Part shown: piece by piece, positions 26,940 through 28,590 of the stretch
How the letters are laid out: each line of letters opens with the position of its first letter
Numbering within the stretch: position 1 is the stretch's first letter
NCBI GenBank assembly: GCA_948567375.1
Contig: OX419755.1
Coordinates: 70,188,944-70,252,943 of the forward strand
DNA length: 64,000 bases
DNA from: Lunularia cruciata
Lineage: Eukaryota; Streptophyta; Marchantiopsida; Lunulariales; Lunulariaceae
Direction of reading: 5' to 3'
Notes under the pieces: generated by a model
What the model was told of the DNA's origin: nothing
What the model saw: the letters and a program-made list of their open reading frames with translations, nothing else
Databases searched by the model: none
Translations under genes and position numbers: made by a program

Positions 26940-27399
26940 GGGATATGTCTATTGGAGTTGTTTGGTGGGATTAGCACCGGACTAGCTACAGTATTATAGG
27001 CAAGTATACGAGTACAAAGGTACTTGTATGTAGAGAGAGATGAGAGTGCTAGGTGAGTCTCTCTACATCATGTGGGACACTTGGCCTATCAATATCCGGA
27101 GTTATTACTGATGTCAACAGTCAGAGGTTACTAGAAAGCCCTACCGGCATACATTTCTTTACTAGGGCGCATGATCTAGAGAGACATGGGCCTATTCACT
27201 TGGTGATTTCTAGATGGCCATGTCAGGGGCATACACGTGCAGGTAGAGGTTTGGGTCTTTAGGATCCTTGTTTTGGTGTGTTTTGGGAGATGTTACGGAT
27301 ACTATGACATCTCTAGGTTCATCAGTCCATTTCTCCATCTTACCTTTTGGAGAATGTGCCTTGGATGGGTGATTCTTGCACCAGAGTGGTAGCGAGTAC
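26940..27399 (+). pseudogene. C5 cytosine DNA methyltransferase, N-terminal half (C1)
   Basis: The domain would transfer a methyl group from S-adenosylmethionine to cytosine C5 in DNA. Motif I (cofactor binding) reads LELFGGISTGLATVL at 26952-26996, followed by RVQRYLYVERDESAR, close in pattern to the DNMT3 motif I/II region. Motif IV (catalytic Cys) reads HLVISRWPCQGHTRAGRGLG; the Cys codon is at 27221-27223. FGVFWEMLRI and the motif VI stretch YLLENVPWM (ENV at 27350-27358) follow. Stops include TAG after VL, TAG after GLGL, and TGA/TAG in the helix before motif VI; a shift lies near 27170. A solo A LTR cuts the gene at 27400. The motif order I-IV-VI-VIII-IX-X is canonical, unlike DRM. Clearly a C5 methyltransferase; the subfamily is less certain. 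Confidence 0.9.
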
Positions 27400-28089
27400 T
27401 ATGAGCCGGTATGTCTCTCACTCAAGATGAACCTCTAATGGCTATTATGGTAGTGCACCATGGACTAAGAAGGCAAGGAACCCCAACTCCATCATACTCC
27501 TCCAAGGCTAACACTCCAAGACTCAAGACATTGCTCACTAGAGAACTCAATGAGAGAGAGATAGTTGTAAATGAAAGGATGATGAGTACCTCATCACCCC
27601 TTGTTTATATAGTTGTGAAATAGTTACATACCAAAGTTACTAATTACCGCAGTAACTCAAGTTACTAGACTAAAAGTCAAGTAAAGTCAAAAAGTAGAAA
27701 GGAATATCCATTCACATGGGAATATTCCCTTAAGCATGTGGTCTTATCTTGACCCAACCACTAAGTCAAGGATTCCTTCACATGGGCTATCCTTGGACTA
27801 AAGAAGAATCCAAAACAAAAAGGCTTGCGGGCCCAAGAGTTCTCAACTCTTTCCTCAAAGCCAAACACTTAGGAATAATACCAAGTCAACACACTAAAAT
27901 CCAAAATAGTGGTGCTCATCTTTCTACTTCCTCTAAAGTAAGGTCCACTCTATCTTAGTTATGACTAACTTTAGCTAACCATGACTAATATAGAAACATC
28001 CTTTATCTCTATATAAATAATATCTCTTAAGTACTTGTAGTACCAAGCTAAATATCACAATACCACACACATGCACAAATGGATGTTAC
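27400..28089 (-). repeat. Solo LTR of family A inside the C1 methyltransferase
   Basis: It is the reverse complement of the element A LTR, from tatgagccggtatgtctctca to aaatggatgttac. The flanks agtac (27395-27399) and aatac (28090-28094) form a TSD with one mismatch. It differs from the young A LTRs at a fair number of sites, so it is an older insertion. LTR-LTR recombination would have removed the body of the element. Confidence 0.9.
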
Positions 28090-28590
28090 AATACACATCA
28101 TGTCCATTCTTGGATGGGACCTGCTGTATTGTTAGAAGGAGCTAGAGTGTGATCACAGGCTCATCATCTTTGTCTTTGGTGGATGAACCTCTTAACCAGA
28201 GAGGTTCTAGAATGTGCTTATGATGGGATTTAACGACTTGACCACATCCTTGTTGATGATATCTTGGATGTTGGGCATGTGTCTCAGACAGTGGTAGTGG
28301 CTGATAGGTCACATGTGGCAATGGTGAACCTAGTTGGACAGCCTAGAGCCGCATTTCTCACACTCATGAGTTTCCTAAGCTCTCATGCTTTTCAAGAGGG
28401 GTAACCTAGACTTGTTTGGGACTCATAGTTACAATAGCTGGTGGAGCTCAACGCTGATGAGAGAGAGAGGATGATGGGTTTTTGCACCGGTATTACCATT
28501 GTTCCAACAATGTCAGAGGCATCCAGGCATCAGATGTTAGGTCAGGCTATGGACCTAAACTGTTTGACTTAGATTATGAGCCTTTGCTTG
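28090..28590 (+). pseudogene. C5 cytosine DNA methyltransferase, C-terminal half (C1)
   Basis: This continues the methyltransferase after the LTR insertion. WMGPAVLLEGARV is followed by a motif VIII-like AHHLCLWWMNLL near 28160-28195; the Arg residues expected there appear lost, possibly by CpG decay. The target-recognition region follows (DDILDVGHVSQ, GQPRAAFLTLMSFLSSHAF). Motif IX/X is strong: LNADERERMMGF (ending near 28482), CTGIT, then HQMLGQAMDLNCL near 28531-28570. ERERMMGF with LGQAMDLN is the hallmark C-terminus of C5 methyltransferases. Single stops remain. C2 carries the same region at 5620-6120. Confidence 0.88.

Follow-up and report, generated by a model that had tools for sequence, protein, structure and literature searches.

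A gypsy-type retroelement family of the liverwort Lunularia cruciata with a predicted Dnmt3-type methyltransferase and a PHD finger

Why would a mobile element methylate DNA, when methylation silences elements? The question is raised by a window of 64,000 nucleotides from the liverwort Lunularia cruciata (assembly GCA_948567375.1, contig OX419755.1, positions 70,188,944 to 70,252,943, forward strand), in which an element copy designated C1 carries a methyltransferase (MT) domain between its protease and its reverse transcriptase (RT). C1, a dead copy, belongs to a gypsy-type retroelement family with an MT and a PHD finger, and the MT is predicted from its sequence to be a Dnmt3-type domain that methylates cytosines in DNA. 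A methylation writer and a histone-reader type domain are coupled here in one mobile element, which likely contributes to writing the epigenetic marks that it bears; the more specific proposal, that the MT methylates the new cDNA of the element while the PHD finger steers integration by reading histone H3, stands at about an even balance. The question is directly testable, with relatives present in Marchantia, Riccia, Calypogeia and Sphagnum, and Marchantia is a transformable model.

The methyltransferase domain and the element that carries it

An original prediction, made from the letters of the window, had described a long terminal repeat (LTR) retrotransposon with a captured cytosine methyltransferase at this place, and the motifs that it named (LELFGGISTGL, WPCQG, LENVP, ERERMMGF and LGQAMDLNCL) are all found in C1 at their positions. 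The Pfam check that it proposed gives a divided answer. On the window copy the DNA_methylase profile (PF00145) matches the middle piece of the MT alone, with E 0.0096 and 15.8 bits, below the cut-off of 22, and finds no match in the two outer pieces. With relatives the support is strong: a protein search using the read-through of a second, more diverged copy (C2) and the three C1 pieces returned 89 proteins at E <= 10, of which 88 reach E <= 1.2e-4 and the best 1.3e-101, the scored set being the 7,995 candidates with most shared words. A profile built from eight of these relatives and run on the six-frame window recovers the C1 pieces at E 3.6e-74, 5.3e-50 and 9.8e-30, and the best C2 pieces at 2.6e-34 and 4.6e-27, with zero matches in 20 windows shuffled in two-base blocks.

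The predicted order of Gag knuckles, protease, MT and RT agrees with tblastn matches of two Marchantia polymorpha polyproteins (P0090 and P0096), which cover C1 from position 24235 (gag) to about 34480; the relatives P0126 and P0125 reach through the integrase, and P0125 also through the PHD finger, ending at 35786. C2 bears the same block before its RT, as had been claimed. Pfam searches of single-frame C1 pieces of the window found neither a gag nor a protease domain, and the protease call is made from the DSG motif and the relatives. The Ty3/gypsy composition with a DDE integrase is seen as RT, RNase H, H2C2 and rve domains by Pfam in C1 and by tblastn in all 20 copies fetched from the genome. 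The break inside the MT block, first proposed as 27400-28089, is an insertion at 27400-28091; the whole element is much longer than this block and holds a second insertion, as listed below (L018 is another copy of the family, to which C1 is 91.4% identical over 7,263 aligned coding-region bases).

22379-36609, + strand: whole element copy C1, decayed, with two insertions (matches to repeats A and B of L018; TGTC/ACA termini)
22379-22811, + strand: repeat A1 of C1 (88% to A2 of L018 over 22384-22811; TGTCAC start read directly)
22812-24234, + strand: C1 leader, from A1 to gag (85% to the L018 leader)
24235-25308, + strand: C1 gag with two zinc knuckles, about 25174-25212 and 25267-25308 (tblastn with P0090; CX2C patterns in the translation)
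26151-26475, + strand: C1 aspartic protease region, DSG at about 26230 (tblastn with P0090; DSG motif)
26937-27399, + strand: first part of the C1 Dnmt3-type MT (predicted), motifs I, IV and VI (family profile E 5.3e-50 and 9.8e-30; Pfam 0.0096 for the middle piece)
27400-28091, unstranded: 692-bp insertion inside the C1 MT, itself a repeat (alignment break against L018; four further copies in the window)
28092-28590, + strand: second part of the C1 MT, motif VIII to X (family profile E 3.6e-74)
28918-28920, + strand: TAG separating the MT frame of C1 from its RT frame (window letters; TAG there in 20/20 fetched copies)
28957-32724, unstranded: 3.77-kb nested insertion in the C1 MT/RT interval (alignment break against L018; partial copies elsewhere in the window)
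33072-33527, + strand: C1 reverse transcriptase (PF00078, E 1.4e-29)
33714-34013, + strand: C1 RNase H (PF17919, E 2.3e-26)
34521-35009, + strand: C1 DDE integrase, H2C2 and rve (PF17921, E 1.8e-16; PF00665, E 5.5e-10)
35652-35786, + strand: C1 PHD finger, 3' of the integrase (PF00628, E 1.4e-8, 35 bits, cut-off 24)
35961-36068, + strand: repeat B1 of C1 (94% to B of L018)
36071-36473, + strand: repeat A2 of C1 (82% to A2 of L018; 85.7% to A1 of C1)
36504-36609, + strand: repeat B2 of C1 (95% to B of L018; 93.4% to B1 of C1)
5216-8897, + strand: C2, a more diverged partial copy with MT, RT, RNase H and integrase (79% DNA identity to L018; tblastn; MT profile E 2.6e-34)
44344-48469, + strand: C3 fragments, with integrase 44344-44730, PHD region 47425-47831 and B-A-B 47839-48469 (blastn with L018 pieces)

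The class of the domain was read from profile scores and motif order. Against known enzymes the family profile matched DNMT3A at 2.4e-17 and DNMT2 at 2.1e-4, while DRM2 was matched at 5.2e-7 only over profile positions 32-159. The motifs of the relatives run in linear order (I, IV, VI, VIII, X), as in a Dnmt3-class domain without rearrangement, and the DRM, DNMT1 and DNMT2 classes are ruled out by score and order together, membership in plant DRM requiring a permuted order. Searches of PDB sequences with single MT pieces gave four weak matches, the best at E 0.49 to DNMT2, and none with the last piece. For structure prediction with AlphaFold, an 8-row alignment that reached a pLDDT of 56.5 was replaced by one of 51 rows. 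A target in RNA, either the RNA of the element or a tRNA primer, is very unlikely: DNMT2 relatives act on tRNA, judging by PDB names, and de Mendoza et al. (2018, PMC5890265; here and below, in the parts of the text covered) raise the possibility of an RNA target for their LINE enzyme, but the profile is far nearer to DNMT3A than to DNMT2.

Copies, relatives, reading frames and ends

The family is high-copy, with thousands of probe matches in the liverwort genome (565.8-Mb assembly, 74 contigs). A 34-base MT probe allowing up to 2 mismatches found 2,814 places, and zero when reversed as a control; a probe on the junction of repeat A and leader found 2,235. The search for intact copies that had been proposed found unbroken MT domains: with the relative P0001 as query, the best 111 of 13,363 candidates span 365-367 residues at 72-74% identity, and 66 of these 111, counted by eye, have an MT domain without a stop. 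The other 45 hold 50 TAG, 10 TGA and 1 TAA stops; this share of TAG (50/61) would be in keeping with CAG codons decaying by C-to-T change at CHG sites. Two further loci, L002 and L003, show cytosine methyltransferase matches at about 30% identity to the family MT and are probably exons of host enzymes.

Twenty loci were fetched, chosen for long open frames in the DNA_methylase search. By tblastn all 20 have protease, MT, RT, RNase H, integrase and PHD in this order, and 19 have gag; the presence of the MT in 20/20 cannot show the share of copies without it, because the loci were picked by their DNA_methylase match, and the prevalence of the PHD finger rests on the same 20. Profile, tblastn and fetched copies bear out the claim that MT capture by a gypsy-type element is a family trait. 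A chance junction, or a host gene adjoining an unrelated element, might be suspected from C1 by itself, broken and sub-threshold in Pfam as it is; this is refuted, and its probability is negligible, given the same order in C2, in the 20/20 copies and in the polyproteins of other organisms, together with the 2,814 probe matches.

The seed-plant setting considered in the original prediction falls away, as the species-named MT relatives are all from liverworts or Sphagnum (Marchantia polymorpha, M. paleacea, Riccia sorocarpa, Calypogeia fissa and two Sphagnum species). The others are metagenomic or without a species name, including two EukProt proteins, and no Klebsormidium name occurs among the matches. 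Of 79 long relatives, 27 match the PHD query and 35 the integrase query; the MT lies before the RT in 10 and after it in 27, while 32 have protease and MT without RT or integrase, 9 have MT and integrase without an RT match, and 1 has neither. In the RT tree C1 groups with two Marchantia rows (support 99), at 73% identity to P0096 over 314 columns, and the 27 rows with the MT after RNase H form one group (99) within a grade of rows with the MT before the RT. These 27 group together in the MT tree as well (98), where the short window pieces fall in a 25-row bryophyte-type group (100). Both trees are quick, with several long branches and some joins flagged unsafe, and their rows were chosen for the presence of an MT, so that elements without one lie outside the sample; the simplest reading would be one capture of the MT between protease and RT and then a later move. 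The relatives whose MT either follows RNase H or separates it from the integrase include P0125, P0143, P0151 and kin from metagenomes, and P0139 and P0167 from EukProt; in P0139 the PHD finger is followed by a weak match to Tudor (PF21743) that stays below cut-off. L001, a 5.6-kb contig filed as viral, matches the MT distantly (37%) at 584-796, and none of the other element parts tested for was matched in it.

The MT is read in one frame with Gag and protease. A TAG ends this frame at the same place in 20/20 fetched copies, with a one-base indel shift in two, and behind it stand RT, RNase H, integrase and PHD finger. The sequence CAGCCAAT, sought after the stop, was not found in the copies because they differ there, and the TAG was then located by position. 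At the PHD end, register with the MT is kept in 14/20 copies and shifted by indels in 6/20. The part from RT to PHD finger is probably made by readthrough of the TAG; because the MT is encoded with Gag and protease, its packaging into the particle is suggested.

The ends of the element modify the original call of an LTR retrotransposon: it is a gypsy-type element, but with split direct repeats and not plain LTRs. In five loci whose outer left flank was read, the left end is A (about 450 bp) and the right end B-A-B (B about 107 bp), with 97.3-99.1% identity between A1 and A2, and C1 shares this A-coding-B-A-B plan; canonical LTRs are therefore ruled out. All five have TGTC...GACA ends and exact 4-bp duplications (ACTC, CATA, GAGG, AACC, CACT), and a purine-rich run adjoins B1. 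Extra long repeats from neighbouring related sequence occur in L013 and L029, and the left end of L011 is chimeric; the five later loci are free of this. In C1 the 4-base flanks are GAAG and AAAG, and it is an old insertion, because its two A repeats are 85.7% identical and the flanks match at 3/4 bases. Membership in the DIRS order, which has a tyrosine recombinase and lacks target-site duplications, was rejected on the rve integrase of C1 and relatives and on the 4-bp duplications in 5/5 loci; the Pfam hits listed for C1 pieces and relatives do not include PF00589. How such ends go together with a DDE integrase is a puzzle of mechanism.

Other repeats share the window. A young unrelated gypsy element lies at 14184-19018, and its RT stretch is matched at 99-100% by 150 scored places out of 44,251 genome candidates, most of which lie in frames about 1,611 aa long; its closest matches are a contig protein (70% over 96%) and proteins from Marchantia (80% over 43%), from Riccia (66% over 68%) and from Taxus (56% over 83%). 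The repeat of about 690 bp has five copies, at 27400-28091 (inside the C1 MT), 40733-41421, 11956-12622, 19067-19733 and 3294-3986, the latter four with 96%, 93%, 93% and 70% identity to the first. The 3.77-kb repeat at 28957-32724 has partial matches at 9626-11917, 37796-40739, 37537-37821, 19749-21159 and 45605-46648; it holds long open frames, no RT was seen in it by the family queries, and it is perhaps a non-autonomous LTR-type element.

Selection, methylation footprint and proposed function

Pairwise dN/dS is 0.20 for gag, 0.27 for protease, 0.26 for RT, 0.26 for RNase H, 0.57 for integrase and 0.23 for the PHD finger (17 to 20 same-length copies each), and 0.40 for the MT (18 copies), in copies picked for long frames, with pairs that are not independent and values that neutral decay inflates. 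Relaxation of the MT relative to RT (0.40 versus 0.26) would suit a role in which the MT binds nucleic acid or serves the polyprotein structurally, catalysis not being what selection keeps. This is decidedly unlikely, since PCQG is kept in 17/18 family copies and ENVP in 18/18, and the PCQ and EN columns are near-invariant across 51 relatives; the yeast result cited below speaks in its favour.

C/T differences among copies amount to 0.055 at CG, 0.036 at CHG and 0.008 at CHH, and in C1 compared with L018, T stands for C at 0.27 of CG, 0.22 of CHG and 0.05 of CHH sites, with A-to-G at 0.023. This pattern points to family copies having lived with methylated CG and CHG. A footprint special to the element's own enzyme was rejected as support: CG > CHG > CHH is the order in an unrelated gypsy family too, so that the pattern gives no pointer to that enzyme. 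Action of the MT in trans, on host chromatin or competing elements, so that the family shapes the methylation landscape of its host, would account for CG and CHG footprints on another gypsy family and would suit the very high copy number; it is nevertheless rather unlikely, as host enzymes alone would give the same footprint and the position of the MT in the Gag-protease frame suggests packaging.

In the proposal that the MT acts on the cDNA of the element, Gag-protease-MT would be made most, and what lies behind the TAG at a lower rate, for instance by readthrough. The protease would free the MT, which would be packed into the particle in Gag-like amounts and there, or later, act de novo on double-stranded cDNA, most likely methylating CG. 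The integrase with its PHD finger would insert the element by its TGTC...GACA ends where the finger binds the H3 tail of the chromatin, and copies would arrive pre-marked, so that host CG and CHG maintenance could take over and many could persist with low harm. The closest solved kin of the PHD finger include CHD4, KMT2D, KDM5B, AIRE and UHRF1 (60 of 97 matches listed), several of which bind unmodified H3 tails. The self-methylation role offered in the original prediction stands as an inference.

Several observations weigh against this proposal. The dN/dS of the MT exceeds that of gag, protease, RT, RNase H and PHD finger; 18 copies of the other gypsy family, examined over the RT stretch only and in frames read without an MT, rank alike (CG 0.035, CHG 0.011, CHH 0.0025); in each of the 20 fetched copies at least one of the two frames is interrupted; and with the Klebsormidium enzyme in yeast, methylation was not seen, a result its authors call inconclusive (PMC5890265). 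A fuller programme of writing and reading, in which Dnmt3 at Gag level marks cDNA before integration, the PHD-tipped integrase targets matching chromatin, self-silencing allows thousands of copies, and the hybrid ends imply a replication route outside both LTR and DIRS elements, can be entertained only tentatively.

Comparison with known systems

DNMT3A and DNMT3B couple catalysis with a PHD-like ADD domain. They resemble the MT in sequence profile, motif order and predicted catalytic-domain fold, but identity in structural alignments is about 20-26%, and the histone reader is here on the integrase, in the other frame, and does not adjoin the MT. In chromoviruses, too, the integrase C-terminus bears a domain of histone-reader type; theirs is a chromodomain, while the present element has a PHD finger, an added MT and split direct repeats, and no chromodomain is among the listed Pfam hits of the C1 pieces and nine relatives.

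Retrotransposons with captured DNA methyltransferases (DNMTs) in dinoflagellates and Klebsormidium, also cited in the original prediction, are described in PMC5890265, and PMC12344493, in the parts covered, repeats the report for streptophytes and dinoflagellates. The covered parts of PMC9985172 give Lunularia cruciata 580 Mb and gypsy bursts, and those of PMC6338049 and PMC10952607 hold nothing on bryophyte elements with an MT. A literature search, with subscription papers and preprints outside its range, found no report of the bryophyte family or of a PHD finger on such an element.

The nearest system is KnitGypsy-Dnmt3 of Klebsormidium nitens, which was compared by its published description, without K. 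nitens sequence. It shares the unpermuted Dnmt3-class domain, the gypsy domain composition and the A-coding-B-A-B repeats, arranged as in DIRS elements according to the legend of Fig. 4 of PMC5890265, and both show signs of purifying selection (MT dN/dS 0.40 here, Ka/Ks < 0.2 in that paper). Its DNMT lies in the Pol reading frame, whereas the MT described here lies in the Gag-protease frame and ends at the TAG before RT, which makes the element a variant and not a plain KnitGypsy-Dnmt3-like member. It differs further as a family of multi-thousand matches in a land plant and by the PHD finger behind its integrase, a word absent from the main text of PMC5890265, figures not covered. SymbioDIRS-Dnmt3 of Symbiodinium also has a Dnmt3-class enzyme and A-coding-B-A-B repeats, but with a tyrosine recombinase in place of the DDE integrase and 4-bp target duplications seen here (PMC5890265). 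Enzyme class and repeat plan are thus already known; the land-plant host, the thousands of probe matches, the PHD finger, the MT in the Gag frame and the second domain order among relatives are new.
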